Part shown: piece after piece, positions 12,128 to 33,976 of the stretch
Numbering within the stretch: the stretch's first letter is position 1
How the letters are laid out: each line of letters starts with the position of its first letter
DNA from: Embleya hyalina
Lineage (GTDB): Bacteria; Actinomycetota; Actinomycetes; Streptomycetales; Streptomycetaceae
Direction of reading: 5' to 3'
Assembly (NCBI RefSeq): GCF_003967355.1
Contig: NZ_BIFH01000046.1
Coordinates: 1 to 64,000 of the forward strand
Length of the DNA stretch: 64,000 bases
Program-made: the position numbers and the translations under genes
The notes under the pieces: generated by a model
The model's database searches: none
What the model was told of the DNA's origin: nothing
What the model saw: only the letters and a program-made list of their open reading frames with translations

Positions 12128-13204
<1,077 letters not shown>

Positions 13205-13353: not shown

Positions 13354-13734
13354 ATGAGTGATCCCTCCAAGATCCGGACCGTCCTGAACCCCGGTATGCC
13401 GCAGAGCGTGATCCCGCCCGGCAACGGCGGCACCACCGGCCCGAACGACAAGACCAAGGTCGAGGCGCAACAACTGCGCACCTCCGCCAAGACGTTGCAC
13501 CTGACCGCCGGCGAGGTGAACACCGTGCGGTCGGTGCCGGACGCGCTCGGCGCCAGGACCGCGTGCGCCGGTTGGCGGTTGGCCGCCCCGCTGACCACCG
13601 CACGGTGGAAGGACCAGATCGCGCGGCTGACCGCCGATCTGGGCGAGATCTCCGAGGGTCTGTACTCGATCGCCGACAACTACGACCGCAACGAACACGC
13701 CGTCACCATCTCCCTTGCCGGGAAGGTGGGTTGA
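13354..13734 (+). CDS. WXG100-like small protein
   Basis: About 126 residues. A Gly/Pro/Asn-rich N terminus (to about residue 30) is followed by a predicted helical hairpin. A Trp-containing turn, AGWRLAAPLTTARWKDQI, separates two helices, as in ESX/WXG100 secretion substrates. It ends four bases before the next gene's start, so the two are coupled. The pairing of a short helical-hairpin protein with a very large partner carrying its own N-terminal hairpin is typical of type VII-associated loci. No ESX secretion genes are nearby. Family assignment is inference. Confidence 0.65.
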   Translation: MSDPSKIRTVLNPGMPQSVIPPGNGGTTGPNDKTKVEAQQLRTSAKTLHLTAGEVNTVRSVPDALGARTACAGWRLAAPLTTARWKDQIARLTADLGEISEGLYSIADNYDRNEHAVTISLAGKVG

Positions 13735-13736
13735 CC

Positions 13737-15893
13737 GTGGTCGACTTTGCCCGGCTGCGCGACCTGCGGATCGAGGCGCTGCGCGAATCGGCCCAGGAGT
13801 TCTACGACTTCGCGTCCTGGCTGGACCACAACCAGCAGCTGATCCGGGTCGACGCAAGGGCGTTGACGGTGACCGGACAGTGGGACGGCCCCTCCGCCAA
13901 GGCCACCCTCGCCCGATACCGGGGCCTGGACGAGGTGTTCGAGGGCGGCAAGACCGAACTCCGGGCGATCTGCGCGATCCTGCGCGACGCGGCGGACGAC
14001 ATCGGCGGGGCGAAGAAGCGACTGACGGACGCCATCGCCGACGCCCGGGCCCACGAGTTGACGGTGGGGAACGACGGCTCGCTCACGTGGGGACCGCTCG
14101 AGCAGCAGGGCCATCAGCCGGATCCGCAGGACATCGAGGCGCACACGAACAGGATGCGGGGACTGGCGGAGGAGTTCCGGCACAGGTTCGCGAGCGCGCT
14201 CGACGACGCGACCGACGCCGACGCACGTGCCGCCTCGGCGCTCACGGGCGACATCGGCGCCGACGGCACCTCGTTCAACGCGAACGCGGTCGGCGGCGGC
14301 GAACTGCCCGACTCGATCCGTGCCGCGGAGTTGGCCAAGCGGGTCGACTCGCTGACGCCCGAGGAGGTGGAGGAACTGCGCAACCTGCTGCACGGCAACG
14401 AGAAGTCGTCGATCTTCGCCACCAACCTGCTGAACACCCTCGGTCCCGAAGGGCTGTTGCACCTGGAGACCGACGTGGTGAACAAGGGCCGGAACGGGAC
14501 CGGCGTCGACATCCCCGAATCCACCATCGCCGAGCTGCGCGCGATCCAGGACTCGCTGGGCGCCAACCTGGCCACCGCCACGCGGTCCACCGAACGGCCG
14601 CACGTCACGCAGACCTGGATCGACGGGCTCAAGGCGGCCGGCCGCGAGTCGTACGAGCTCCGGGACATCCCCACGCACCACCTCGCCGGGTACCAGCTGA
14701 TCGGCAACTGGCTGCACCGGGGCGACTGGGACACGCGGTTCCTCGCCGACGTGGGCAAGGACATGGTCGCCTTCGACCGGGACGGCTACCACCCGCACGA
14801 GCCCGTCCCGCTGACGTCCGACCGGTTCCCGGTGTTGGCGGCGGCGATGGGACCCGACGGGCACGACCTCGATCAGCTGTCCGGTCTGATGCACGCGCTC
14901 GGCCGCGATCCGAGCGCCGCCGAGCAGGTCTTCGACCCGAAGTCGGGCGACAACCTGCACTACCTGATGAAGCGGCGGGACTGGGGCAACGAGACCGGAC
15001 CCGGCTCGCCGGCCGACCTGTTCGGCCAGGCCTTCGAGGCCGCCGCCACCGGGCATCCGGCGGGCGCGACCGCGGGCGGCGCGCACACCGAGGCGGGCGC
15101 GCGGATCTTCGCCGACGCGATGCACACCGTGGGACAGGAGGGCCCCGGCGGGCACTTCGCCGACTACCGGGACAGCGTCACCAACGCGGTGGCCTCGTAC
15201 ATGCCCGACATCCACAACGAGTTGCGCAACGACCGCGCGGGCGGATCCCCGGGCCCGGACCCGCTGTTCCCGAACTCGGGGGAGGCTCGGGCCGCTTTCC
15301 TCGGCGGCACCCCCGACCACGACCTGATCCGCACGATGGCGGTCCTCGCCGAGGACCCCGGGGCGTTCCGGCGGATGGCCGACGCCGAACACGCCTTCAT
15401 CGCGGTCGGCCTGGAACGCATCTCGACCGGCAACCCGCCGGCCGGCATCTCCGCCGATCAGCATCTGGCCGACTCGGCCCAGGTGGTCGGCATGCTGGAC
15501 GAGGTGCGCACCGAGGCGATGCGGCACCAGCAGGTGGTCGCCGACGAGGAGTACAACGACCGGACCACCTGGACCGGCAAGGGCGCCGCCAACGTGGTCG
15601 CCGGCGCGGTCAAGACGAGTCCGCTGCCGACCATGGTCGCCGAGCCGCTGTCCCGGGTGGTCACGCTGACCGCCGACTACGCCGCGCAGAACAGCCAGGT
15701 GGACACCTCGGCCCAGGCCGACCGCGAGATCGCCGACCAACACGCGTGGGGGCGCGGCTACATGCAGCAGATCGCCGCCGACTGGGCCCACACGCACGGT
15801 CGGGACGACGAACTGCCCGGCTACGACACCACGTCGAACATCAACTTCACCGTCGGCAAGGACCGGGCCCGGGAGGCGATGGGCCGGCCGTGA
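13737..15893 (+). CDS. Large WXG-domain protein, possible type VII substrate
   Basis: About 718 residues. The first 100 residues form a predicted helical hairpin with a WDGPSA turn, resembling WXG/ESX domains. The central and C-terminal part resembles the DUF6571 type of large actinobacterial proteins: acidic and helical, with segments such as KRVDSLTPEEVEELRNLLHG and DFARLRDLRIEALRESA. No signal peptide, no membrane helix and no recognisable toxin active site. The GTG start at 13737 overlaps the end of the preceding gene's reading region, with GGGAAGGTGGG upstream. If it is a polymorphic toxin, no immunity gene is obvious next to it. DUF6571 assignment is from memory of sequence style and is uncertain. 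Confidence 0.65.
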   Translation: MVDFARLRDLRIEALRESAQEFYDFASWLDHNQQLIRVDARALTVTGQWDGPSAKATLARYRGLDEVFEGGKTELRAICAILRDAADDIGGAKKRLTDAIADARAHELTVGNDGSLTWGPLEQQGHQPDPQDIEAHTNRMRGLAEEFRHRFASALDDATDADARAASALTGDIGADGTSFNANAVGGGELPDSIRAAELAKRVDSLTPEEVEELRNLLHGNEKSSIFATNLLNTLGPEGLLHLETDVVNKGRNGTGVDIPESTIAELRAIQDSLGANLATATRSTERPHVTQTWIDGLKAAGRESYELRDIPTHHLAGYQLIGNWLHRGDWDTRFLADVGKDMVAFDRDGYHPHEPVPLTSDRFPVLAAAMGPDGHDLDQLSGLMHALGRDPSAAEQVFDPKSGDNLHYLMKRRDWGNETGPGSPADLFGQAFEAAATGHPAGATAGGAHTEAGARIFADAMHTVGQEGPGGHFADYRDSVTNAVASYMPDIHNELRNDRAGGSPGPDPLFPNSGEARAAFLGGTPDHDLIRTMAVLAEDPGAFRRMADAEHAFIAVGLERISTGNPPAGISADQHLADSAQVVGMLDEVRTEAMRHQQVVADEEYNDRTTWTGKGAANVVAGAVKTSPLPTMVAEPLSRVVTLTADYAAQNSQVDTSAQADREIADQHAWGRGYMQQIAADWAHTHGRDDELPGYDTTSNINFTVGKDRAREAMGRP

Positions 15894-16007: not shown

Positions 16008-16310
16008 ATGACCGAGGAGGAGGCGATCGCCGGTGTGTTCGGCGCGTTCGAACGTGATGTGGGTCGCCTCCTCGCCGCCGCTCCGGGCGCCGGGCGCCCC
16101 TCGATCCGAGCGCTGTGCGCCCGGCGCGGGCACGTCCGCCGGATGTGGCTCGGCGCCGGTCTGACGGTGGCGCTGGTATGCGTCGCCGGGACTCGGCTGG
16201 TCGGTACACGGAACCGATCACCGCTTCGCGTGCGTGGGTGGGGGAGAGAAACCCGGGCCGGGGATTCGGCGACCCGAACCGGGATCGGATGCCCGCCCGG
16301 GGCCGGATAA
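16008..16310 (+). CDS. Small single-pass membrane protein
   Basis: About 100 residues. An acidic N terminus (MTEEEAIAGVFGAFERDVG) is followed by a basic stretch and one hydrophobic segment (WLGAGLTVALVCVAG, about residues 46-60), then a basic tail. It sits 54 bases before an ECF sigma factor. A short cytosolic domain plus one membrane helix is reminiscent of an anti-sigma factor, but it is too small and lacks the HCC zinc motif, so this is only a guess. ATG 16008 chosen by coding character. Confidence 0.45.
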   Translation: MTEEEAIAGVFGAFERDVGRLLAAAPGAGRPSIRALCARRGHVRRMWLGAGLTVALVCVAGTRLVGTRNRSPLRVRGWGRETRAGDSATRTGIGCPPGAG

Positions 16311-16364
16311 AGTACCGGGTCACGGCAGGACGAAACACGCCGCGACGGGACGCGGGGGAACACA

Positions 16365-16880
16365 ATGGGACGGGACAAGGGCGATCGCCCCGATTTCGAC
16401 GTGTTCTACGCGGAGAGCCACGGCGCCCTGGTCGCCCACCTGTACGCGCTGACCGGGGATCTCGGCGAGGCCCAGGAGGCCGCGCAGGAGGCGTACATCC
16501 GGGCCTGGAAGGACTGGGACCGGATCAGCTCGTACGAGAACCCGGTCGCGTGGATCCGGCTCGTCGGCCAGCGCATCGCGGTCAGCCGCTGGCGGCGCAC
16601 CCGGACCGCGCTCAAGAGCTGGATCCGACACGGTCCGGACCGCGACCTGCCCGCGCCCGGCCCCGAATCGGTCGCGCTGGTCACCGCGTTGCGGCAGATC
16701 CCCGAGGCGCAGCGGCGCGCGGTGGTGATGCACCACATGGGCGGTCTGTCGGTGGCCGAGATCGCCGCGCACGAGGGGGCGCCGGAGGGGACCATCAAGG
16801 CCCGCCTCTCGCGTGGCCGAGCCGCGCTCGCGGGGCTGCTCGCGGACGGCTCGGAAGCGGTCCGGACCGGGCGGTCCTGA
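16365..16880 (+). CDS. ECF (SigE-family) RNA polymerase sigma factor
   Basis: About 171 residues with only regions 2 and 4. Region 2 is FYAESHGALVAHLYALTGDL followed by EAAQEAYIRAWKDWDRI. Region 4 has the helix-turn-helix LSVAEIAAHEGAPEGTIKAR. It should direct RNA polymerase to a small set of promoters. ATG 16365 has GGGGGAA upstream. It is followed in the same direction, about 260 bases later, by a PP2C phosphatase and three FHA proteins, which may be its targets or partners. Confidence 0.9.
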   Translation: MGRDKGDRPDFDVFYAESHGALVAHLYALTGDLGEAQEAAQEAYIRAWKDWDRISSYENPVAWIRLVGQRIAVSRWRRTRTALKSWIRHGPDRDLPAPGPESVALVTALRQIPEAQRRAVVMHHMGGLSVAEIAAHEGAPEGTIKARLSRGRAALAGLLADGSEAVRTGRS

Positions 16881-17141
16881 ACCCGTGTGCGAACCCCGCG
16901 TCGAACCCGCGTGCGCGTCGGGTGTCGGTGCGCGCCGGCCGGGCGCCGTGCCGGGGCGCGCGCGGGGGACCGTCGCCCGCGCGATCCGGATGCGTCGAAG
17001 CCGGCGGATCCGGGAAACCCGAAGGAATTGGCCTCCGGTTCACATGCCACCGGCGTATTCGAGGCAGCATGCTTGAACGAGGCAGTGCTATCGCCGCACC
17101 GGACTTGCCGTTCCGGTCCGACATCGTGGAGCGTGAGACAC

Positions 17142-18863
17142 ATGAGGGGCAGAGGGGACTCGGGTCGGGAGACGACCGTGCCGGCTCGCGGTGGCTTCCC
17201 GGAACGGACGCTGCGGCAGGACGAATTGCGCGCGGAGCGGCCGGCCGCGGTCGACGACGACATCTTCGGCGACCTCTACCTCGACTTCGAGGACGCGCCG
17301 ACCCGGGCGCCGGTCGAGCCGCCGGCCGCACCGGAGCCCGCGGCCGAACCCGCCGTCGAGGCGCGGGCGCCACGGGGGTTCGACGACACCTTCGCGGCCG
17401 GGACGGATGACCCGGCGGACCCGGCGGACCGGCCGGAATTCGACCACGACGCCGACCCGGCGCGGCGGCCGGATCCCGACCACGCGCCGACCGCGGTCGG
17501 CGAGCCCGACGGCGCGGCGCGGGCGGCGTCCCCGTGGGACCGGGCGCCCCGACCGGCCGAGACCGTCGGGGCCGGGGGGCAGGACGCCGCGCCCGACCCG
17601 GTGCCGCACACGGTGACCCCGCCCGCGGTGCGCTCCGAGTCCCGGGCCGAGGCGGTGCCCCCGCCGCCCACGATCGCCGCCGCCGGTTCCACCGACACCA
17701 CGCTCGCCGCCGCGCACGCGGTGCCGCCCCTGCCCACGGTGCCGCCGATGCCCACGGCGCCGCCGCGCGTGCCGGAGCCGCCGTACGCGCCCGAGGCGGC
17801 CCGGGTGCCGCAGACGCCGTACGCGCCCGAGGCGGCGCGCGGGCCCGAGACGCCCCACGCGCCGGAGGAGGCCCCGACGCCCGAGTCGCGGACCGAACTG
17901 CTGCCGGTCGCCGTGCCCGTCGACGAGGCCGCCGAGGGGGCCGCCGAGGAGCCCGACGAACTCGACGTGCCCACCACCTCGCGCAGCGACAGCCTGCGCC
18001 GCGCCGAGGCGACCGAGGAGGAGATCCGGGCCCGCAGCGGCCCGCCGCTCGGCGTGCAGGCGTCCGCCTGGTCCACCTCCTCCCACCCCGGCCGTCGCCG
18101 GGCCGCCCGCCGCGAACGGCGCGGCCTGGGCCCGGAGCTGACCGCCCGGGACAACGACGACCGCTACGCCGCGACGGGCGAGGTGTTCATCGTCGCCGAC
18201 GGCCTCGGCGGCCACCCCGCCGGTTGGTACGCGGCCGACGTCGCGGTCCGCACCCTGGTGTCCGAACTCGCCGCCGCCGACCTGGCCGCGGGCTGGAGCG
18301 ACCGGCTCGGCGCCGCGATCGCGGTGGCCGACCTGGCGGTGCGCCGGCACGGGGTCGCGCAGTACGAGGGCATGCGCACCACCGTGGTGGCCGCCGTCCT
18401 GCAACACGGCCGCCTGCACCTGGCCGGGTGCGGCGACAGCGTGTGCTGGCTGGTCCGCGGCGGCCGGGCGTTCCGGCTCACCGAACAGGGCAACGCCGCC
18501 GAGTTCGGCCGCCCCTGGCTGCTCACCTCCACCCCCCTCGGCGGCTCCCAGGCGCCCGAACCCGAATTGCAGCGCATCGAACTGCACCCCGGGGACCGTG
18601 TGGTCCTCGCCACGGACGGCGTCGGCCACCTGCCCGACGAAACGGTCGCCGACCTGGTGCACGGCGACCCCTTCCACGCCGCAACGACCTTGACCAGGAC
18701 GGCCGTCGAGAGCGGTGACGACGACGCCACGGCGGTCGTGGTCGAGTGCGACGCACTGCCCGTTCCGGAAGGTCATCGCTCCGGCGCCGACCCCAGGGAA
18801 CAATCGGAGGATGCGTCGGGTACCCCCGGGGCCCTACGGTCGGACGGCGGAACGGCCTGGTGA
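17142..18863 (+). CDS. PP2C-type phosphatase with long Pro/Ala-rich N terminus
   Basis: About 573 residues. Residues 1-320 are disordered and rich in Pro, Ala, Glu and Asp, with short near-repeats such as YAPEAARVPQTP and YAPEAARGPETP. The C-terminal PP2C domain starts near residue 328. Motifs present are RDNDDRY, VADGLGGH (metal Asp), GMRTTVVAAVL, AGCGDSVCWLV, ATDGVGHL and GDDDATAVVV (metal Asp). It should dephosphorylate phospho-Ser/Thr, using Mn/Mg, in the cytosol. The start at ATG 17142 gives the usual coding bias from the first codons. It immediately precedes three FHA genes, which suggests that their phospho-peptide ligands are its substrates. Confidence 0.85.
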   Translation: MRGRGDSGRETTVPARGGFPERTLRQDELRAERPAAVDDDIFGDLYLDFEDAPTRAPVEPPAAPEPAAEPAVEARAPRGFDDTFAAGTDDPADPADRPEFDHDADPARRPDPDHAPTAVGEPDGAARAASPWDRAPRPAETVGAGGQDAAPDPVPHTVTPPAVRSESRAEAVPPPPTIAAAGSTDTTLAAAHAVPPLPTVPPMPTAPPRVPEPPYAPEAARVPQTPYAPEAARGPETPHAPEEAPTPESRTELLPVAVPVDEAAEGAAEEPDELDVPTTSRSDSLRRAEATEEEIRARSGPPLGVQASAWSTSSHPGRRRAARRERRGLGPELTARDNDDRYAATGEVFIVADGLGGHPAGWYAADVAVRTLVSELAAADLAAGWSDRLGAAIAVADLAVRRHGVAQYEGMRTTVVAAVLQHGRLHLAGCGDSVCWLVRGGRAFRLTEQGNAAEFGRPWLLTSTPLGGSQAPEPELQRIELHPGDRVVLATDGVGHLPDETVADLVHGDPFHAATTLTRTAVESGDDDATAVVVECDALPVPEGHRSGADPREQSEDASGTPGALRSDGGTAW

Positions 18864-18918
18864 CGGTTCACCGGGCGAAGATGGGCGATGCCCCAGGGCG
18901 GGGCACGAGACCGGACGG

Positions 18919-19749
18919 ATGGCGATGCTCGAACTGATCCTCACCGTGGCGACGTCGGACGACGCCGACCAGCAGGAGTCGGACCTGGCCCGGCCGCGCA
19001 CGGTGAAGGTGCAAAGCGAGCCCGGCAAGAAGATCGCGATCGGCCGGGACCCGTCGCGCTGTGGCCTGGTCACGCCGAAGGACTGGCGCTTCGTATCGCG
19101 CGTGCACCTGGAGTTCGTCTACTCCCTGGAACGCGGCTGGAGCGTGGAGTGGCTCCAGGGTTCGCACCCGCGCCCGGTGGCGCTGGTCCAGATCGACCGC
19201 GAGGGCGTGTCCGAACCGGTGCCCTACGGCGCGACGCTGCCGCTGGGTTCGCTGCGCCCGGGCCGGGTGGTGGTCACCGACCTCGCCCGGCGACGTCGGG
19301 TCCTGGTGGAGTGGCGGGTGTCCCTGCCGCAACGCCCCGGCGAGGAGCCGACCGAGCCCGACGTCGGCGTGCCCGAGACCCAGGACGTCGCGCCGTTCGT
19401 GTTGCAGAACCGCCTCTCCGAGACGGAGATGGAGGTGCTGGCCGCGCTGTCCTGCGACTGGGTGCACGGCCGTCCGGTCAAGCGCGCCAAGTCGACCAAG
19501 GAACTGTGCGACCTGCTGCACCTGTCGGCCGCCACGGTCGAGCGGTACAAGACCAAGTTGCGCCGCGAGTTCTACAGCTCCGGCCTGTGCCCGGAGCTCA
19601 ACTCCCTGCTCGGTCCGAACTACCTCGACACCGTGCGGCACGTGCACGGCGGCTGGGACCTGATAGCGCAGACGGCGGTCACCCACGGAATAACGGGACG
19701 CGGTCCCTGCCCGTGTGGTGCCGACGCCCCGCACGCGGGTACCAGGTGA
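18919..19749 (+). CDS. FHA-domain protein with C-terminal winged helix (paralogue 1)
   Basis: About 276 residues. The N-terminal FHA domain (about 35-120) has the phospho-threonine pocket motifs IGRDPSRCGL and FVSRVHLEF. A linker leads to a DNA-binding-like domain (about 165-260). This begins LSETEMEVLAALSCDW and carries a helix-turn-helix in STKELCDLLHLSAATVER. The end is HVHGGWDLIAQTAV and a Cys pair, GPCPCG. Architecture resembles an inverted EmbR (FHA plus HTH), so a phospho-regulated transcription factor is the likely role. ATG 18919 or 18925 is the start. It lies 55 bases after the phosphatase and 31 before paralogue 2, so it is probably in one operon with them. Confidence 0.8.
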   Translation: MAMLELILTVATSDDADQQESDLARPRTVKVQSEPGKKIAIGRDPSRCGLVTPKDWRFVSRVHLEFVYSLERGWSVEWLQGSHPRPVALVQIDREGVSEPVPYGATLPLGSLRPGRVVVTDLARRRRVLVEWRVSLPQRPGEEPTEPDVGVPETQDVAPFVLQNRLSETEMEVLAALSCDWVHGRPVKRAKSTKELCDLLHLSAATVERYKTKLRREFYSSGLCPELNSLLGPNYLDTVRHVHGGWDLIAQTAVTHGITGRGPCPCGADAPHAGTR

Positions 19750-19780
19750 GCGGTGGGACCCGGGAGGGGGCGAGGGGAAA

Positions 19781-20605
19781 ATGCTCGAACTGAACATGTC
19801 GTTCACGGCGTTGGAGGACGGTCGCGAGGCGGAACGTGATCCGCTGCCGAACCCCAAGAGCGTGCGTACGCCCGGTGTGGCGGGCACGCGGGTGTTCGTG
19901 GGCCGCGATCCCAGCACGTGCCGACCGCTGCTGACTCCGCACGACTGGCTGTTCGTCTCCCGCAAGCACCTCGTGTTCGAGTACAGCGAGGACCGCGGCT
20001 GGACGGTGGAATGGCCGCGCGGGACGCGGGACACACCGGTGGCGATCGTGCGGATCAAGCGCGGCGAGACGTCGCAGGACATGCCGTACGGCGCGATCCT
20101 GCCGCTGCCGGCGCGGACCAGCGGCAGCATCCTGGTCAGCGATCTGGCCCGTCGACGCAGCGTGGTGCTCGCGTGGCGGGCGATGCAGCCGATCCGGCCG
20201 TCGGACCCGGCCGGTATCGCGCGCGGCGCCGGGGTGGACACGACCGACGTGGGCCCGGAGCAGTTGCGCGCCAAGCTGCACGGGGTGCGTCTGGAGGTGC
20301 TGGCGGCGATGTCGTGCGACTGGATCCACGGCCGGGCCACCAAGCGCCCCCGCACCACCGACGAGTTGTGCGAGATGTTGTACATGGCCAAGGCCACGGT
20401 CGAGCGCTGCAAGACCGAATTGCGCAGGGATTTCTACAGTTCGGAGCTTTGCCCCGAACTGAACCATCTGTTGGGACCCGACTATCTGGACACCACCCCG
20501 CACGTCCACGGCGGGTGGGACCTGATCGCGCAGACCGCGGTCGTCTGCGGCATTGTGGGTGGCGAACCGTGCCCGTGCGCCCGGCGCGGCGGGTCGATCG
20601 ACTGA
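19781..20605 (+). CDS. FHA-domain protein with C-terminal winged helix (paralogue 2)
   Basis: About 274 residues, clearly paralogous to the preceding gene over its whole length. FHA motifs are VGRDPSTCRPL and FVSRKHLVFEY. The HTH part contains TTDELCEMLYMAKATVER and is followed by LRRDFYSSELCPELNHLLGP. The end is again HVHGGWDLIAQTAV with a Cys pair, EPCPCA. ATG 19781 has GAGGGGAAA just upstream. The two HTH regions differ at several recognition-helix positions (HLSAATVERYK versus YMAKATVERCK), so the two proteins may read different DNA sites or form heterodimers. Confidence 0.8.
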   Translation: MLELNMSFTALEDGREAERDPLPNPKSVRTPGVAGTRVFVGRDPSTCRPLLTPHDWLFVSRKHLVFEYSEDRGWTVEWPRGTRDTPVAIVRIKRGETSQDMPYGAILPLPARTSGSILVSDLARRRSVVLAWRAMQPIRPSDPAGIARGAGVDTTDVGPEQLRAKLHGVRLEVLAAMSCDWIHGRATKRPRTTDELCEMLYMAKATVERCKTELRRDFYSSELCPELNHLLGPDYLDTTPHVHGGWDLIAQTAVVCGIVGGEPCPCARRGGSID

Positions 20606-20685
20606 ACGGCGAGCCGGCCCGAGGGGTGGGACGGCACGGGGGACCGACCGAGGATCTGACGACCAGGAGCGTGGGGGAGGAACCG

Positions 20686-21078
20686 GTGCTCGATCTCAAC
20701 ATGGCGTCGACGTCGGGGGCGGACGACGCGGCGACGGTTGCCATGCTGATGGCAAGCGCGCCGAGCCGGCCGGGGGCGACGTTGGCGGTCGGTCGCGACG
20801 CGACCCGCTGCCACCTCGTGACACCGGCCGACTGGCTGTTCGTGTCCAGGGTGCATCTCGAATTCCAGTGCGGCGACGACGGCATCTGGTGGGTCACCTG
20901 GCGGCGCGGCTCGCAGGACGCGCCGGTGGCCGAGGTGCAGGTCGACGACGGCGAGGCACGCCTGCTGCCCTACGGCGGCACCGCGCCGTTGCCCCGGCCC
21001 GGGTCCGGCGAGGTGGTCATCCTCGACCTCAACGGGCAGCGCCGGGTCACCATCGGCTGGTTCCTGGCGGCCGACTGA
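20686..21078 (+). CDS. Stand-alone FHA-domain protein (paralogue 3)
   Basis: About 130 residues: only the FHA domain of the two preceding paralogues, without the HTH part. Motifs are VGRDATRCHL and FVSRVHLEFQC. The N terminus LDLNMAST matches LELNMSFT of paralogue 2, so it is a true third copy. The GTG start at 20686 has GGGGAGGA upstream. It ends ILDLNGQRRVTIGWFLAAD and stops cleanly, with no trace of a broken HTH region in the following 100 bases. It may compete for the same phospho-ligand. Confidence 0.8.
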   Translation: MLDLNMASTSGADDAATVAMLMASAPSRPGATLAVGRDATRCHLVTPADWLFVSRVHLEFQCGDDGIWWVTWRRGSQDAPVAEVQVDDGEARLLPYGGTAPLPRPGSGEVVILDLNGQRRVTIGWFLAAD

Positions 21079-21286: not shown

Positions 21287-22876
21287 GTGAGCAAGCCCGT
21301 CGTTCTGATCGCCGAGGAACTGTCGCCGGCCACCGTCGACGCCCTCGGACCCGACTTCGAGATCCGCCACTGCGACGGTGCCGACCGCGGTGAGCTGCTG
21401 TCCGCGATCGCCGACGTCGACGCCATCCTGATCCGCAGCGCCACCAAGGTGGACGCCGAGGCGATCGCCGCGGCCCGGCAGCTCAAGGTCGTCGCGCGCG
21501 CCGGTGTCGGTCTGGACAACGTCGACGTCCCCGCCGCCACCAAGGCCGGCGTGATGGTCGTCAACGCGCCGACCTCCAACATCGTCACCGCCGCCGAACT
21601 GGCCTGCGGCCTGATCATCTCGGTCGCGCGCAACATCCCGCAGGGCAGCGCCGCGCTCAAGAACGGCGAGTGGAAGCGCAGCAAGTACACCGGTGTCGAG
21701 CTGTCCGAGAAGACCCTCGGCGTGGTCGGCCTGGGCCGGATCGGCGTCCTGGTCGCGCAGCGCATGTCCGCGTTCGGGATGAACATCGTGGCCTACGACC
21801 CCTACGTGCAGCCCGCGCGCGCCGCGCAGATGGGCGTGCGACTGCTCACCCTGGACGAGGTCCTGGAGCAGTCCGACTTCATCACCGTGCACCTGCCGAA
21901 GACCCCGGAGACGCTGGGTCTGATCGGCGAGGACGCGCTGCGCCGGGTCAAGCCGACGGTGCGGATCGTCAACGCCGCGCGCGGCGGGATCGTCGACGAG
22001 GTCGCGCTGGCGTCCGCGCTCAAGGAGGGCCGGGTCGCCGGCGCCGGGCTCGACGTGTTCGCCAAGGAGCCGTGCACGGACAGCCCGCTGTTCGAGTTCG
22101 ACAACGTGGTGGCCACGCCGCACCTGGGGGCGAGCACCGACGAGGCGCAGGAGAAGGCCGGCGTCGCGGTGGCGAAGTCGGTGCGGCTCGCCCTCGCCGG
22201 CGAGCTGGTCCCGGACGCGGTCAACGTGCAGGGCGGCGTGATCGCCGAGGACGTGCGCCCGGGTCTGCCGCTGGCCGAGAAGCTGGGCCGGATCTTCACC
22301 GCCCTGGCCGGCGGCGTCGCGGTCCGCCTCGACGTCGAGGTGCGCGGCGAGATCACCCAGCACGACGTGAAGGTGCTGGAGCTGGCGGCGCTCAAGGGCG
22401 TGTTCGCCGACGTGGTGGAGGAATCGGTCTCCTACGTCAACGCCCCGCTGCTCGCCCAGGAGCGCGGCGTGGAGATCCGGCTGACCACCGGTTCGGAGAG
22501 CCCCGACCACCGCAACCTGGTCACCGTGCGCGGCACGCTCGCCGACGGCGAGGAGATCTCGGTCTCCGGCACGCTCGCGGGCCCCAAGAACATCGAGAAG
22601 ATCGTCGAGGTGCACGGCTTCGACGTGGACCTGGTGCTCACCGCGCACATGGTCTTCCTGCGCTACGCCGACAAGCCCGGCGTGGTCGGCGTGATCGGCC
22701 GCCACCTCGGCGAGGCGGGCGTCAACATCGCCGGCATGCAGGTCGCCCGCGCCGCCAAGGGCGGCGAGGCGCTGGTCGCGCTCACCGTCGACACCACGGT
22801 CGAGCCGCACATCCTCAACGCCATCGCCGAGGAGATCGGCGCCGCGTTCGTGCGCTCGGTGAACCTGGAGGACTGA
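21287..22876 (+). CDS. serA: D-3-phosphoglycerate dehydrogenase
   Basis: About 529 residues, the long bacterial form. It catalyses NAD-dependent oxidation of 3-phosphoglycerate, the first step of serine synthesis. The catalytic domain has VVGLGRIGVLVAQRM (Rossmann), VNAARGGIVDE (catalytic Arg) and ATPHLGAST (catalytic His). An intervening domain (about 315-450) and a C-terminal ACT domain (KPGVVGVIGRHLGEAGVNIAGM) give serine feedback control. The GTG start follows GAAGGA. It lies 209 bases after the third FHA gene, with a Rex-like site and its own promoter between them. Confidence 0.96.
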   Translation: MSKPVVLIAEELSPATVDALGPDFEIRHCDGADRGELLSAIADVDAILIRSATKVDAEAIAAARQLKVVARAGVGLDNVDVPAATKAGVMVVNAPTSNIVTAAELACGLIISVARNIPQGSAALKNGEWKRSKYTGVELSEKTLGVVGLGRIGVLVAQRMSAFGMNIVAYDPYVQPARAAQMGVRLLTLDEVLEQSDFITVHLPKTPETLGLIGEDALRRVKPTVRIVNAARGGIVDEVALASALKEGRVAGAGLDVFAKEPCTDSPLFEFDNVVATPHLGASTDEAQEKAGVAVAKSVRLALAGELVPDAVNVQGGVIAEDVRPGLPLAEKLGRIFTALAGGVAVRLDVEVRGEITQHDVKVLELAALKGVFADVVEESVSYVNAPLLAQERGVEIRLTTGSESPDHRNLVTVRGTLADGEEISVSGTLAGPKNIEKIVEVHGFDVDLVLTAHMVFLRYADKPGVVGVIGRHLGEAGVNIAGMQVARAAKGGEALVALTVDTTVEPHILNAIAEEIGAAFVRSVNLED

Positions 22877-28547: not shown

Positions 28548-29138
28548 TCAGCGCAGGCGAGCCATCAGAGCATGCTCGACCAGCGTGATCAGGGTCGACT
28601 TGGCCGATTCGCGGCGCCGTGCGTCACAGCTCACGATCGGGGTGTCGGGCCCTATTTGCAATGCCTCGCGGACATCCTCCGCGTGGTGGGTCTGCAATCC
28701 GTCGAAGCAGTTCAACGCGACGATGAACGGCAGACCGCTGTTCTCGAAGTAGTCGATCGCGGGGAAACAATCGGCGAGTCGGCGGGTGTCCACCAGAACC
28801 ACGGCGCCGATCGCGCCGCGGACCAGGTCGTCCCACATGAACCAGAATCGGTGCTGACCCGGAGTACCGAACAGGTACAGGATCAGATCCTCGTCCAGCG
28901 TGATGCGACCGAAGTCCATCGCGACCGTGGTGGTCTGCTTGTCCGGCGTCGCCGACAGGTCGTCGACCCCGGCGCTGGCGGACGTCATGACCGCTTCGGT
29001 ACGCAGCGGAGCGATCTCCGAGACGGCACCGACGAGCGTGGTCTTGCCCACGCCGAATCCGCCGGCGACGACGATTTTCGCCGACGTGGTGGAGGACCTG
29101 GCGGGGACCGGGCCCGGGCTAGAGCTTGCGAAGTCCAC
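28548..29138 (-). CDS. Conservon GTPase (CvnD-type)
   Basis: About 196 residues. Small ATP/GTP-binding protein of the conservon set. The P-loop is VVAGGFGVGKTTLVG (about residue 20). The switch region is TTTVAMDFGRI, then LYLFGTPGQHRFWFMWDDL in place of the DxxG motif, and ALNCFDG in place of NKxD. Such proteins form a membrane-associated complex with the kinase, Roadblock and DUF742 proteins and resemble eukaryotic G-protein signalling. The GTG start at 29138 overlaps the preceding gene by 20 bases, which indicates translational coupling. Last gene of the four-gene block. Confidence 0.9.
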   Translation of the reverse strand: MDFASSSPGPVPARSSTTSAKIVVAGGFGVGKTTLVGAVSEIAPLRTEAVMTSASAGVDDLSATPDKQTTTVAMDFGRITLDEDLILYLFGTPGQHRFWFMWDDLVRGAIGAVVLVDTRRLADCFPAIDYFENSGLPFIVALNCFDGLQTHHAEDVREALQIGPDTPIVSCDARRRESAKSTLITLVEHALMARLR

Positions 29139-29493
29139 TGAGCACCCTTTCGAGCAGCGTGACGTCCGGCTGCCCCTGGTCGTTCCCGGGCTGGTGGATG
29201 ACCACCAGGCCGGCTTCGGCGAGATCCGCGACGAGGACGCGGGCGACACCGAGCGGGATGGTGAGCAGAGCCGAGATCTCGGCTACCGACTTGACCTCCC
29301 GACACAGCGCGCAGATGCGCTGGTGCTCGGGCAACAGGCCGGGTGGATTGGCCACCTGAGGTGTCGTGGTGACCAAGGCCTCCAGCGCGAGCTGATAGCG
29401 AGGCCGGGTACGACCACCGGTCATGGCATACGGGCGGACCAGGGTCTCGTGAAACTCCTGGTCCCCGTGATCGGACATATCCGAAGGTGTCAT
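29119..29493 (-). CDS. Conservon DUF742 protein (CvnC-type)
   Basis: About 124 residues. DUF742 signature: LVRPYAMTGGRTRPRYQL near the N terminus, then QRICALCREVKSVAEISALL and a winged-helix-like end, LPLGVARVLVADLAEAGLV in form. Its ATG overlaps the Roadblock stop (ATGA). A later ATG at 29478 is also in frame. The HTH-like fold in this family suggests a scaffold or a DNA-binding role, which remains open. Confidence 0.9.
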   Translation of the reverse strand: MTPSDMSDHGDQEFHETLVRPYAMTGGRTRPRYQLALEALVTTTPQVANPPGLLPEHQRICALCREVKSVAEISALLTIPLGVARVLVADLAEAGLVVIHQPGNDQGQPDVTLLERVLSGLRKL

Positions 29494-29918
29494 CGCGGCA
29501 GTGCACCTTGGAGTTCGGCGCGCAGCGCCGGCGTGAGCACGGCGCCCGCGCGATCGACGAGCAGGGCCATCTCGTAGCCGATCAGGCCGATGTCGCACTC
29601 CGGCGACGCCAGCACGGCCAACGAGGAGCCGTCCGAAATCGACATGATAAAGAGGAAACCCCGTTCCATTTCCACGACCGTCTGGGTGACGTGCCCGCCC
29701 TCGAAGATACGGGACGCACCCTGGGTCAGGCTGGTCAAACCCGATGCGACGGCGGCGAGCTGGTCGGCCCGGTCGCGAGGGAAGCCCTCGGACAGGGCGA
29801 GCAGCAGGCCGTCCGCGGAGACCACGACCGTGTGCGACACCCCGGGGGTGTTGTCCACGAAGTTCGTGATCAGCCAGTTCAGGTTCTGCGCGGCCTGGCT
29901 CAACGACTTCTCAGTCAT
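29490..29918 (-). CDS. Conservon Roadblock/LC7 protein (CvnB-type)
   Basis: About 142 residues, single Roadblock/LC7 domain: LNWLITNFVDNTPGVSHTVV, VSADGLLLALSEG, then MERGFLFIMSISDGSSLAVL. Such proteins dimerise and bind the small GTPase, possibly controlling its nucleotide state. It overlaps the kinase stop by four bases (ATGA) and is coupled to the DUF742 gene. Confidence 0.92.
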   Translation of the reverse strand: MTEKSLSQAAQNLNWLITNFVDNTPGVSHTVVVSADGLLLALSEGFPRDRADQLAAVASGLTSLTQGASRIFEGGHVTQTVVEMERGFLFIMSISDGSSLAVLASPECDIGLIGYEMALLVDRAGAVLTPALRAELQGALPR

Positions 29919-32900
29919 GCCTGCTCCTGGTTGTTCTCGTCACGAGGTCGAGGGGCGGATCCCCCGGCCCCGGCGGTGCGACCCTGCTGGATGCCCCGGC
30001 GGAAGTTGGTCAGCCGTCCACGGACCTCGTCGGGCGACCGGGACAGGCCCGGCCCGCTCGGCGCGGTCGGTCGACCCGGCTCCCGACGGGACCCGGCCGC
30101 GGCAGAGCCCGCACCCGTGTGACCCGGGGCCTGAGCCCCGCCGGACTGCTCGACGCCGCCCGGCACCAGGTTGGCGCGGGGTACACGTCGGGGCAGGCCC
30201 GCTCCGGTGGTGCCACCCGAGGACGGCTCACGAGCGGCCTCGGCCGCGCGCCAACCGTCGTCACCCGCGGAGTACCAACCCGACTGCGGCCCCTGCGGGC
30301 CGCCGGCGGGAGAGACCGCGGCGGACTGCTCGACGACCTCGTCCGGCTCCGTCGGCGTCCCGAACATGTCGGTGGCGGGCTGCTGACGCCCACCTCCGAA
30401 CGCCGGTGCCGGCTCGGCCGGTGCCTGCGGCGGATTGGTCGCCATCGGCACCCGACGGTCGAGATCGCCCAACGGACCCGGATCCGGGAGCGCCTGCTCG
30501 CCTGCCGGTACGGCTCGCTCCCCGCCTCGCGGCGTGGAACGGACCTGCGCGGCACGCATCCGACCGCCGCGGTTGCCCTGGCGGTGGAACCAGTCCGACT
30601 CGAGTGTGTCGAAGATGGGAAGCCTACCGTCGTCCCCGGTGCTCGGGGGCGCACTCATGTCCAACTCGGACGGAGCAGGCACCTGTTCGGCGATTTCCTG
30701 CGCACCGACGGGCGCGAACGGACCGGTTTCCGAGCGACCCGGACCGGCCGGCTCGAACGGCGAGACCGTCGGACGCACATCACCCTGCGGGCCGCGGACC
30801 TGCTCGGCCCGGGTGTGCTCGTCCTGCTCCGACCGCACCGGCAGGGGACGCGCCTGCGCCGGACCGCGCAGCACGGGCAGCGCGTCGCCGGTGTCCATCC
30901 CGAGTTCGTCCCCGGACTCGGTCGCCCGCTGCGGCAGTTCGTCGCGACGGGTCAACTCCTCCCGGCGCGGCGCGTCGTAGCCGGACGGCACCTCGGCCGG
31001 CGGCGCGACGGGCTCGATCGGCGGCAGCGGTGCCACCGGGGTGAGTTCGTCGTACTCGGTGCCCCAGGTCGGACGCTGCGGCTCGTCCCGCAGCGGTGCG
31101 AGCTCCGCACCCGGGCCGCCGAACGGCTGCCCGGACTGCTCGTATCCGAGCGGGTCGACGTCGGCCGCGGGGCGCGGCTCGTCCGCGTATCCGAACGGGG
31201 ACGCGAACTGCGAGGTGTCGCCCGCGCGTACGCTCCCGTCGCCGAACTGCGGCGCGGCCGGGAAGGACCCGGTGTCGGTGCCGAACGGCGCCTGCTGCGC
31301 CTCGACGCCGAGGTTGTCCTCGACGGTGCCGAACATCGGCGCCGGCGGCGCGGCCGGGAAGGCGCCCGTGTCCTGGTCCCGGGCCGGCGGCCCGACCGGT
31401 GCGAACGGGTTGTCCGAACCGGGCGTGGCCGGCGGCGGCGAACTCGGCGCGCGGTGCGCGCCGGTGCTGTGTACGCCCGGCTCGCCCGCGAACGGGTTCA
31501 CCGTGCCCGGGTACGGCGTGTCCTGCCCGGTGGAGGCGTCCTGGAAGGAGGGTGCCTCGAAGGACTGGGTGCTGCCGTAGGACGGCTCCTGCTGCACCGG
31601 CGCCTGGGCGGGCCGGTCCTCCGCGACCGGCGTCGGCTGGGGCGGCTGGTTGATCGGCTGTACCGGCGTCTCGGCGCTGCGCTGCGGCAGTTCGCGCCGC
31701 CGGTTGCGCTCCTGCGCCCGGCTGCCCACCCGGGGACCGGGCAGGGCGGGCGCGGCGGGCGTGGCCGAGGGCAGTTCCTCGCTCCAGCCGGACACCGCCG
31801 CCGCGGTCTTGTCGCCGCCCTTGCTCCACCCGTCGCCGCCACCGGGGCGGTCGCCCTGGATGAGCTCGATCGGGAGCATGACCAGCGCGGTGGTACCGCC
31901 ACCCTCGCCCGGCCGGAGCTGGACGCGGATGCCGTGCCGGGTGGCCAGTCGGCCGACCACGAACAGACCCATGCGACGCGAGATGGAGACGTCCACCACC
32001 GGCGGACGGGCCAGCCGCTGGTTGGCGTCGGCGAGGTCGTCGCCGGTGAGCCCGATGCCGTTGTCGTGGATCTCGATCAGCGCCCGGCCGTCGGGAAGGA
32101 TGTGGCCGGTGACGCGGACCTTGGTGTGCGGGCTGGAGAACGTGGTCGAGTTCTCCAGCAACTCGGCGAGCAGGTGCACGAGGTCGTTGACCGCGCGACC
32201 GGCGATGTCGGTGGTGGGCAGTGCGCCCAACTCGACCCGCTCGTACTGCTCCACCTCGGAGGCCGCGGCGCGCAGCACGTCGACCAGCGGAACCGGTCGG
32301 GTCCAGCGCCGGCCCGGCTCCTCGCCCGCGAGCACCAGGAGGTTCTCACCGTTGCGGCGCATGCGGGTGGCGAGGTGGTCGAGCTTGAACAGGTTGGCCA
32401 GCTGGTCCGGGTCCGCCTCGCGGTTCTCCAGGTCGGAGATGAGCGCGAGCTGACGCTGGATCAGGCTCTGGCTGCGGCGCGAGAGGTTGACGAACATCGA
32501 GTTGACGTTGCCACGCAGCAGGGCCTGTTCGGCGGCGAGTCGTACGGCCTCGGCGTGCACCGCGTCGAACGCGCGCGCCACCTGGCCGATCTCGTCCCGG
32601 GACAACACGCCGATCGGCTCGATGGCCAGGTCCACGTCGCCGGGGTCCGACTCGGAGAGCCGGCGCACCGTCTCGGGCAGCCGCTCCTCGGCGACCTCGA
32701 GCGCGGACCGACGCAGCGTGTTGAGCGAACGCACCAGCGAGCGGGCCACGATCACGCCGAGCAGGATGGTGATCAACAGCGCGCCGACGACGAGGATCGT
32801 GTTGACGAGGGCGTCGGTACGGGCCTGGTCGCGCAGGTCCTTTGAGGTGGCGATCAGCTTCTTGCCCAGCTGGGCCTCGACCTGACCGAGCGCGCCGATC

Positions 32901-33976
32901 TTGTCCGTGGACAGCGTCCACCAGGTCTGCTGGTTGAAGTCGGCGATGTTCTCCAGCTTGGCGTTGCCGCCGGGCTTGGGAGCGGACACCGCGGCGCCGA
33001 CCATGCCCTTGAACTGCTGGAAGGCCTCTTCGACCAGGGTGATCTTGTCCCGGCTGACGCCCGACTTGTACAGCGCGCTCCAGTCGGTGGGGGCGACGCT
33101 GGTGAACGCGCGGATCGCGTTCTGCTCGCCCTCGTTCAGCCGCGCGAGCGTCTCGCCCGCCTCCAGCGGGAGGTCGTTCGGCTTGAGCGCGTACGCGACG
33201 ACCGCGGCCCGCTGCGAGGACGCGTACGCCTTCGCCTCGCCGAACGAACCCAGCGCGCGGGCGCCCTGGATCAGGTCGGCGTCACGGGTGATCTCGGGCG
33301 CCTCCTGGTTGATCTGCAGCAGCTGCAGGATCATCTTGTTGTAGGCGTCGATCGTGCTGCGGGTGCTGGTCTTGAAGGCGTCCTGACGGGTGCGGTTCAA
33401 CTCCGTCAGCGAGTGGCCGATGTCCTTGAGCGTGGCACCGAGCACCGGCATCGAGTCGGTGTTCAGCTTCGCGGCGGTCGCGTTGTAGACGGTGACCTGG
33501 TCGTCGGTGGTCTTCTTGGCCTTGTTCACCTCGCCCGTCAGATCCGCCGGCGGAGCCACGCTCGCCTGCGCGAGCAGGTCGCGTTCCTGCTCCAGCCACG
33601 CGGCCAGCGTCGACGCCTGGTCGATGATGGCCGATGCCTTTTGCACCGTGTCCATCTCTTGCGTCTTGTCGATCGACGACTGGATACGCAGGCCGCCGAG
33701 CAACGCGGCGACCACGACCGGGAGCAGGAGCAGCGCGGTGATCCGGGTACGGATGCGCCAGTTCCCGATCGAGAACAGCAACTTGAGCCGGGACGGTGCC
33801 GCCCCGGCGGGCCGGGCTGCCCCGGCGCCGGCTATGGAATCCCCGACGGGGTCGGGGGTCTCGTTGGCGTCCTGGGGTCCGCTGGCTTGCTGCGGGGCTC
33901 GCACCTCCGGCGTGGCGGGGCCGGCCGTGGCCGGGGCCCCTGCGGAGTCGTGCTGCTTCTTCCGACGTCCCTGCAC
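29915..33976 (-). CDS. Conservon sensor kinase with nitrate/nitrite-sensing domain (CvnA-type)
   Basis: About 1353 residues. A basic N terminus precedes a membrane helix (ITALLLLPVVVAALLGGL, about 79-96). An extracellular helical NIT domain (about 105-375) and a second helix (LVVGALLITILLGVIVA, about 392-408) lead to a HAMP region. The ATPase core contains LAELLENSTTFSSP (N box, about 595) and HDNGIGL (about 634). A possible phospho-acceptor His is in LDHLATRMRRNG. From about residue 690 to the end is a long Pro/Gly/Gln-rich disordered tail. Near its end are GLPRRVPRANLVPGG and [14 protein letters not shown]. The GTG at 33976 begins VQGRRKK; the open frame upstream lacks coding features. First gene of the conservon. 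Confidence 0.9.
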   Translation of the reverse strand: MQGRRKKQHDSAGAPATAGPATPEVRAPQQASGPQDANETPDPVGDSIAGAGAARPAGAAPSRLKLLFSIGNWRIRTRITALLLLPVVVAALLGGLRIQSSIDKTQEMDTVQKASAIIDQASTLAAWLEQERDLLAQASVAPPADLTGEVNKAKKTTDDQVTVYNATAAKLNTDSMPVLGATLKDIGHSLTELNRTRQDAFKTSTRSTIDAYNKMILQLLQINQEAPEITRDADLIQGARALGSFGEAKAYASSQRAAVVAYALKPNDLPLEAGETLARLNEGEQNAIRAFTSVAPTDWSALYKSGVSRDKITLVEEAFQQFKGMVGAAVSAPKPGGNAKLENIADFNQQTWWTLSTDKIGALGQVEAQLGKKLIATSKDLRDQARTDALVNTILVVGALLITILLGVIVARSLVRSLNTLRRSALEVAEERLPETVRRLSESDPGDVDLAIEPIGVLSRDEIGQVARAFDAVHAEAVRLAAEQALLRGNVNSMFVNLSRRSQSLIQRQLALISDLENREADPDQLANLFKLDHLATRMRRNGENLLVLAGEEPGRRWTRPVPLVDVLRAAASEVEQYERVELGALPTTDIAGRAVNDLVHLLAELLENSTTFSSPHTKVRVTGHILPDGRALIEIHDNGIGLTGDDLADANQRLARPPVVDVSISRRMGLFVVGRLATRHGIRVQLRPGEGGGTTALVMLPIELIQGDRPGGGDGWSKGGDKTAAAVSGWSEELPSATPAAPALPGPRVGSRAQERNRRRELPQRSAETPVQPINQPPQPTPVAEDRPAQAPVQQEPSYGSTQSFEAPSFQDASTGQDTPYPGTVNPFAGEPGVHSTGAHRAPSSPPPATPGSDNPFAPVGPPARDQDTGAFPAAPPAPMFGTVEDNLGVEAQQAPFGTDTGSFPAAPQFGDGSVRAGDTSQFASPFGYADEPRPAADVDPLGYEQSGQPFGGPGAELAPLRDEPQRPTWGTEYDELTPVAPLPPIEPVAPPAEVPSGYDAPRREELTRRDELPQRATESGDELGMDTGDALPVLRGPAQARPLPVRSEQDEHTRAEQVRGPQGDVRPTVSPFEPAGPGRSETGPFAPVGAQEIAEQVPAPSELDMSAPPSTGDDGRLPIFDTLESDWFHRQGNRGGRMRAAQVRSTPRGGERAVPAGEQALPDPGPLGDLDRRVPMATNPPQAPAEPAPAFGGGRQQPATDMFGTPTEPDEVVEQSAAVSPAGGPQGPQSGWYSAGDDGWRAAEAAREPSSGGTTGAGLPRRVPRANLVPGGVEQSGGAQAPGHTGAGSAAAGSRREPGRPTAPSGPGLSRSPDEVRGRLTNFRRGIQQGRTAGAGGSAPRPRDENNQEQA

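Follow-up and report, generated by a model that had tools for sequence, protein, structure and literature searches.

A PP2C phosphatase and FHA-like gene set between ilvC and serA in Embleya and Yinghuangia: a tentative phosphorylation-read switch on transcription

To our knowledge, direct reading of phosphothreonine has been described for few bacterial transcription factors. The window analyzed here, a stretch of 64,000 nucleotides from the 12.05-Mb genome of an Embleya-like actinomycete, raises the question of whether a short row of its genes encodes two such factors together with the phosphatase that would reset them. The initial annotation had joined a sigma factor, a PP2C phosphatase and three FHA paralogues into one phospho-switch on transcription; the PP2C, FHA1 and FHA3 genes do form a core, and the sigma gene falls outside the conserved unit. 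Eight genes, every one on the + strand, occupy the interval between two flanking genes that we take from their sequences to be ilvC (12188-13204) and serA (21287-22876); these genes, and a conserved block at the start of one of them, are as follows.

13354-13734, + strand: WXG100/EspC-like gene (profile matches)
13737-15893, + strand: DUF6571 gene (profile matches)
16008-16310, + strand: small ORF of 100 aa with one hydrophobic stretch (ORFs 91% and 51% identical at the equivalent position in two other Embleya)
16365-16880, + strand: ECF sigma factor, SigE-like (Sigma70_r4_2, E 4e-15)
17108-17161, + strand: conserved block over the PP2C gene start (34 bases 5' of the ATG and the first codons)
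17142-18863, + strand: PP2C-type Ser/Thr phosphatase, 573 aa (PP2C_2, E 3e-12)
18919-19749, + strand: FHA1, with an N-terminal FHA-like and a C-terminal helical, HTH-like domain, 274-276 aa (ATG at 18919 or 18925)
19781-20605, + strand: FHA2, a paralogue of FHA1 with both domains present, evolving faster
20686-21078, + strand: FHA3, an FHA-like domain alone, 130 aa (GTG start)

The common direction of these genes and the gaps of 55, 31 and 80 bases after the phosphatase had been recorded correctly, the 55 bases running from the PP2C gene to the FHA1 ATG at 18919. Position 16008, from which the annotated set had been counted, is the start of the separate small ORF (16008-16310) and not of the sigma gene.

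Comparison with other genomes shows that the core unit is PP2C – FHA1-HTH – FHA3, which is smaller than earlier claimed. This core lies between ilvC and serA in all five Embleya and Yinghuangia loci that are readable on both sides, and two further loci, both interrupted by contig ends, agree with the arrangement. In Embleya G002 (L037), the full set of the window is found between ilvC and serA; in E. scabrispora (L029), the sigma, PP2C, FHA1, FHA2, FHA3 and serA genes are visible and the contig ends before ilvC; and locus L028 is cut off inside the PP2C gene, leaving FHA1, FHA2, a partial FHA3 and serA in view. Three Yinghuangia loci (L030, L031 and L032) carry PP2C, FHA1 and FHA3 in the ilvC-serA interval, with neither the sigma gene nor FHA2, and the order and spacing of the three shared genes are kept across both genera. 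The co-occurrence in other genomes by which the grouping was to be judged is thus found for PP2C, FHA-HTH and FHA3 across two genera, and not for the sigma gene, which is absent from all three Yinghuangia loci. Because ilvC directly adjoins serA (237-414 bases apart) in all 17 Streptomycetaceae genomes of other genera that we examined, within the family sample the module was either gained in the Embleya-Yinghuangia line or retained there alone. Outside Streptomycetaceae, the same adjacency was seen at one of seven loci, the other six showing no ilvC in the short stretch read, with one of them incomplete.

The distribution of the individual proteins follows the same two genera. Profile searches scored few candidates per genome (6 in the family, 13 in the class and 12 in the phylum sample), so that misses are possible, and they found full-length FHA-HTH proteins in 7 of 394 family genomes (four Embleya, three Yinghuangia), the HTH domain in 1 of 345 genomes of the class sample (the window's own), and the FHA3 family in 8 of 346 genomes of the phylum sample, from two genera. 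In 121 further family genomes, all of one genus, the match was confined to the first 168 of 275 positions. FHA1 and FHA3 orthologues are present in all seven Embleya and Yinghuangia genomes; the HTH domain occurs in 4/4 Embleya and 3/3 Yinghuangia, and FHA2 in 4/4 and 0/3, respectively. At E 1e-15 the PP2C was found in 6 of 37 relatives' genomes, all Embleya or Yinghuangia, and a comparison of FHA1 with plasmid and phage records returned nothing at E 0.001. The FHA-HTH pair appears to be new and restricted to these two genera in the samples searched; the literature search, which reached its sources in part, did not find the PP2C – FHA-HTH – FHA3 gene set described.

In a tree of 26 FHA domains, the FHA1 sequences of both genera form one group (98/95) and those of FHA2 another (99/97), and FHA1 and FHA2 together split from FHA3 and its one-genus relatives (100/99); on the midpoint-rooted tree FHA3 is not a single group (10% of bootstrap trees). 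If the tree is rooted between its two halves, this topology suggests that the FHA1/FHA2 duplication predates the split of Embleya and Yinghuangia and that Yinghuangia lost FHA2. Every gene compared gives a dN/dS well under 1, indicating purifying selection. Constraint is strong on FHA1 within Embleya (0.015 against E. scabrispora) and weaker on FHA2 (0.19, and 0.29 against G002).

Assignment of the FHA domains is based on motifs and predicted structure. The Pfam FHA scores of the three proteins (15.9, 16.4 and 18.3 bits) do not reach the cut-off of 20.7, and a whole-genome Pfam FHA search listed eight other places and none of FHA1-3; among related proteins, FHA is nonetheless the commonest weak match (9/9 and 20/21 members). 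An AlphaFold2 model of FHA3, computed from 21 aligned sequences, has ten strands and a mean pLDDT of 91.7. Compared with the PDB, it matches FHA-containing proteins at all of ranks 1-28, counting Nbs1 and KLP-6, which we presume to contain the domain; ten matches lie at E ≤ 0.001, the best at 1.5e-4, and Rad53 FHA1 with a phosphothreonine peptide is matched at E 4.4e-4. FHA3 is accordingly modeled, and thereby predicted, to have the FHA beta-sandwich fold. A full-length model of FHA1 (pLDDT 72.1) has a single PDB match at E ≤ 0.001, the CT664 FHA domain (5e-4), and the FHA profile, when searched against PDB sequences, gave four matches, all at E of at least 0.2 and none an FHA protein.

In FHA domains, Gly-Arg and Ser-Arg-x-His contact the phosphate, and in the classical motif an Asn after the Gly-Ser turn holds the peptide. 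The pocket residues are present in part: Gly-Arg and Ser-Arg-x-His are invariant across 21 aligned rows, and the Asn is replaced in all three proteins (GSHPRP in FHA1, GTRDTP in FHA2 and GSQDAP in FHA3), as it is in the one-genus FHA3-like relatives. Phosphothreonine binding by FHA1-3 is plausible, because the first two motifs do not vary, and unproven, because the Asn has been replaced. Elsewhere in the same genome, contig C13 (L035:9529-10065) encodes a 178-aa protein that begins with a Cys-rich stretch and has a domain sharing about 31% identity with the N-terminal domain of FHA2; it has no Ser-Arg of the pocket motif and no Pfam match.

FHA1 and FHA2 are 52-54% identical, and share a C-terminal region of about 110 residues that is more similar still (64% over 115 aligned positions). 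Both had been assigned a C-terminal winged helix, with the third protein described as FHA only. The latter description fits, as FHA3 consists of the N-terminal domain alone; the winged helix was rejected, since the FHA1 model, with its middling confidence, places only helices after residue 133, with no strand of three residues or more, and hence no wing. A GerE match was obtained for two of nine members (15.6 bits, against a cut-off of 23.5), and the four-helix pattern of the domain resembles GerE by eye; one of the nine weakly matches sigma region 4. A PDB sequence search gave three matches, all at E of at least 0.38, and no credible relative. The domain is best called HTH-like, and may bind DNA.

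The phosphatase has a variable, Pro/Ala-rich N-terminal region (about residues 1-304) followed by a catalytic domain (about 335-535). The Asp motifs for metal binding are present (VADG 351, GDS 431, TDG 491 and DDAT 527) and conserved between genera, and the catalytic part is 88% and 90% identical to that of two Yinghuangia species. Relative to PstP of the same genome, the protein has fewer residues between GDS and TDG, in an alignment that is rough at its start. The Pro-rich segment, earlier described as a tail, is in fact this N-terminal part, with 57 Pro, 57 Ala and 23 Thr in residues 1-304. The suggestion that it serves as the ligand of the FHA proteins is weakened because most of the region is unalignable between genera; in its favor, three short motifs, ERTLRQDEL, DLYLDF and TSR(S/T)DS, two of which contain Thr, are kept in all five further loci examined (two Embleya, three Yinghuangia).

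A second element conserved between the genera lies at the start of the phosphatase gene. The 34 bases before its ATG are identical at 30 positions in each of the three Yinghuangia loci, as compared with 27/46, 27/59 and 29/57 in alignments of the preceding 60 bases; set against a background of 65% (third-position identity in the PP2C catalytic part), 30/34 gives P 0.002 per locus, the loci not being independent of one another. With three mismatches allowed, the pattern was found in 6 of 41 genomes, at a single place in each, and was absent from the other 35, and a reversed-pattern control found no match in the 41. This block may be a promoter, a ribosome-binding site or an operator for self-control. 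No second copy was found in the window's genome, and therefore no regulon is visible. The four differences within the 34 bases all fall at third positions of the PP2C frame, as would fit coding; a longer PP2C start was rejected because inspection by eye showed no in-frame start codon that the loci share. An RNA element was likewise dismissed (no Rfam match, and three sequences that fold worse than most shuffles), as were shared repeats or a dyad upstream of PP2C in the window and L030, where there are no direct repeats and the inverted pairs are not common to both. Conservation of the block at the DNA level (17108-17161) also takes in rare AGG/AGA codons.

Upstream of the block, the genes differ between genera. 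The ECF sigma factor scores 139.1 bits with NCBIfam SigE-fam, slightly below the cut-off of 141.55, and its gene, 261 bases from PP2C, is found in the three readable Embleya loci and in none of the three Yinghuangia loci, for which reason it was rejected as a core member. The small ORF at 16008-16310, which has no Pfam or NCBIfam match, is a possible companion of the sigma factor, judging by position only. The space from ilvC to PP2C is taken up by type VII secretion-like genes in the window (13354-15893), in L030:5268-7751 and in L031:2640-8357; they are WXG100/EspC-like, DUF6571 and Abhydrolase_8 genes, their number and kind vary between genera, and the window's WXG100 match is below its cut-off.

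Taken together, these features lead us to propose a lineage-specific switch on transcription that is read through phosphorylation. A Ser/Thr kinase encoded elsewhere would phosphorylate a partner protein at a threonine; FHA1 and FHA2 would bind this phosphothreonine with their FHA domains, altering DNA binding by their HTH domains; and PP2C, the product of the first gene of the operon, would strip the phosphate and reset the switch. FHA3, which has no DNA-binding domain, could compete for the phosphopeptide and so set a threshold, and the conserved block ahead of the PP2C gene may be the site by which the switch regulates its own operon. The earlier observation that the locus holds no Ser/Thr kinase extends to the whole contig (C46), on which there is no Pkinase match; the genome has 67 such matches, 63 of them over the cut-off (some being fragments or repeated places), and it is easy to imagine a kinase that acts from another part of the genome. 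We count in favor of the switch the linkage of PP2C, FHA1 and FHA3 in two genera, the FHA3 fold, the pocket motifs, the PP2C metal motifs, the helical C-terminal domain with its weak GerE similarity, the low dN/dS, the many kinases of the genome and, as far as its published account is available, the EmbR/MstP precedent. Counted against it are the replaced Asn, FHA scores under the Pfam cut-off, an HTH that is weakly GerE-like and has no sequence relative in the PDB, an FHA1 model with a pLDDT of only 72.1, the want of a linked kinase and of a second start block, and FHA3-like proteins of another genus that have no such PP2C in two loci read over 20 kb. Because we infer phosphate binding, DNA binding and targets (and with them the kinase, the role of FHA3 and self-control), and because the Asn is lost, we put this switch forward tentatively, at somewhat less than an even chance.

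Other readings assign the same genes different roles. The FHA domains may have ceased to read phosphate, instead holding regulators together or binding an unphosphorylated partner, with PP2C acting on other proteins; replacement of the Asn in FHA1, FHA2, FHA3 and the one-genus relatives, and the low FHA scores, would be explained in this way, but the invariance of Gly-Arg and Ser-Arg-x-His in 21 rows and the presence of a PP2C gene beside the FHA genes in both genera would not, and we regard this loss of reading as unlikely. We give rather less credence to the PP2C and FHA genes being mere neighbors with no common pathway. Their conserved order and spacing in two genera, set between ilvC and serA, argue for more than chance proximity, even though FHA2 has been lost in Yinghuangia and the FHA3-like genes of another genus are separate from such a PP2C.

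Two further readings turn on the genes upstream. If the main role of the set were post-translational control of the secretion-like genes (WXG100-like, DUF6571, alpha/beta-hydrolase), as in type VI secretion with its threonine phosphorylation pathway, this would account for WXG100/EspC-like genes between ilvC and PP2C in both the window and Yinghuangia; the differing number and kind of these genes, the sub-threshold WXG100 match and the HTH-like domain on two of the three FHA proteins make it decidedly unlikely. For the sigma factor to be an output or member of the switch is the least probable of the readings, its position just ahead of PP2C, on the same strand, in all three readable Embleya loci being outweighed by its absence from all three Yinghuangia loci, its separation from PP2C by 261 bases and the conserved start block, and the small neighboring ORF of its own. 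Very improbable, too, is a self-contained version in which a kinase would phosphorylate PP2C itself, at Thr23 (in ERTLRQDEL) or Thr279 (in TSR(S/T)DS), the FHA-HTH pair would dock there, self-dephosphorylation would release the DNA-binding proteins and FHA3 would act as decoy; if true, the transcription factors would be sequestered by their own phosphatase. Under the preferred reading of a phosphorylation-read switch, a compact pair of FHA-HTH proteins and the phosphatase that comes with it, located in a conserved region of amino-acid genes and seen here in two genera only, would offer a simple system for studying how FHA binding alters DNA binding, and would also test whether an FHA domain works without the usual Asn.

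Several known arrangements invite comparison. Among them are standalone FHA3-like genes from another Streptomycetaceae genus, which we take to be Streptomyces; they are 56-61% identical to FHA3 and keep the invariant motifs, and the two loci read over 20 kb have no such PP2C. Across 31 loci from 29 genomes of that genus, a methyltransferase gene lies alongside in 27 of the 29 genomes and a DUF1992 gene likewise in 27; in L033:9124-10787 and L034:9265-10867, the FHA3-like gene sits between O-methyltransferase and DUF1992 genes, an order kept in most loci examined. It is common in actinomycetes for a PP2C gene to neighbor FHA genes. The genome of the window itself has a cluster (L079) that we take to be fhaA-fhaB-pstP, in which FHA genes directly adjoin a PP2C gene; unlike the set described here, its FHA domains pass the Pfam cut-off and the region also has a kinase gene, along with genes that are presumably cell-wall-like. 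The minus strand of the window (28548-33976) also carries what we presume to be a conservon-like row (GTPase, DUF742-like, roadblock-like and large sensor kinase genes). On contig C24 of the same genome (L082:1-4674), the end of a kinase gene is followed in a row by PP2C-like, von Willebrand-like and FHA genes, as labeled partly by eye, a row that resembles the actinobacterial kinase-PP2C-vWA set as outlined in the accessible part of its description (PMC7159879).

As far as the available accounts describe it, the PpkA-PppA-Fha pathway of type VI secretion has a similar logic of kinase, PP2C and FHA reader, but it acts on a secretion machine and its kinase is linked. The EmbR/PknH/MstP system of Mycobacterium tuberculosis is alike in that an FHA transcription factor is reset by a PP2C phosphatase: in the accessible portion of the published work, the DNA binding of EmbR falls in vitro upon dephosphorylation by MstP, and EmbR is laid out with an OmpR-type domain at its N-terminus, then a BTA domain, and an FHA domain at its C-terminus (PMC4601284). 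The proteins of the window differ in having the FHA domain at the N-terminus and the HTH at the C-terminus, with no BTA or OmpR-type Pfam match. The likeliest reading of the set is a switch that resembles EmbR/MstP in logic and not in architecture.
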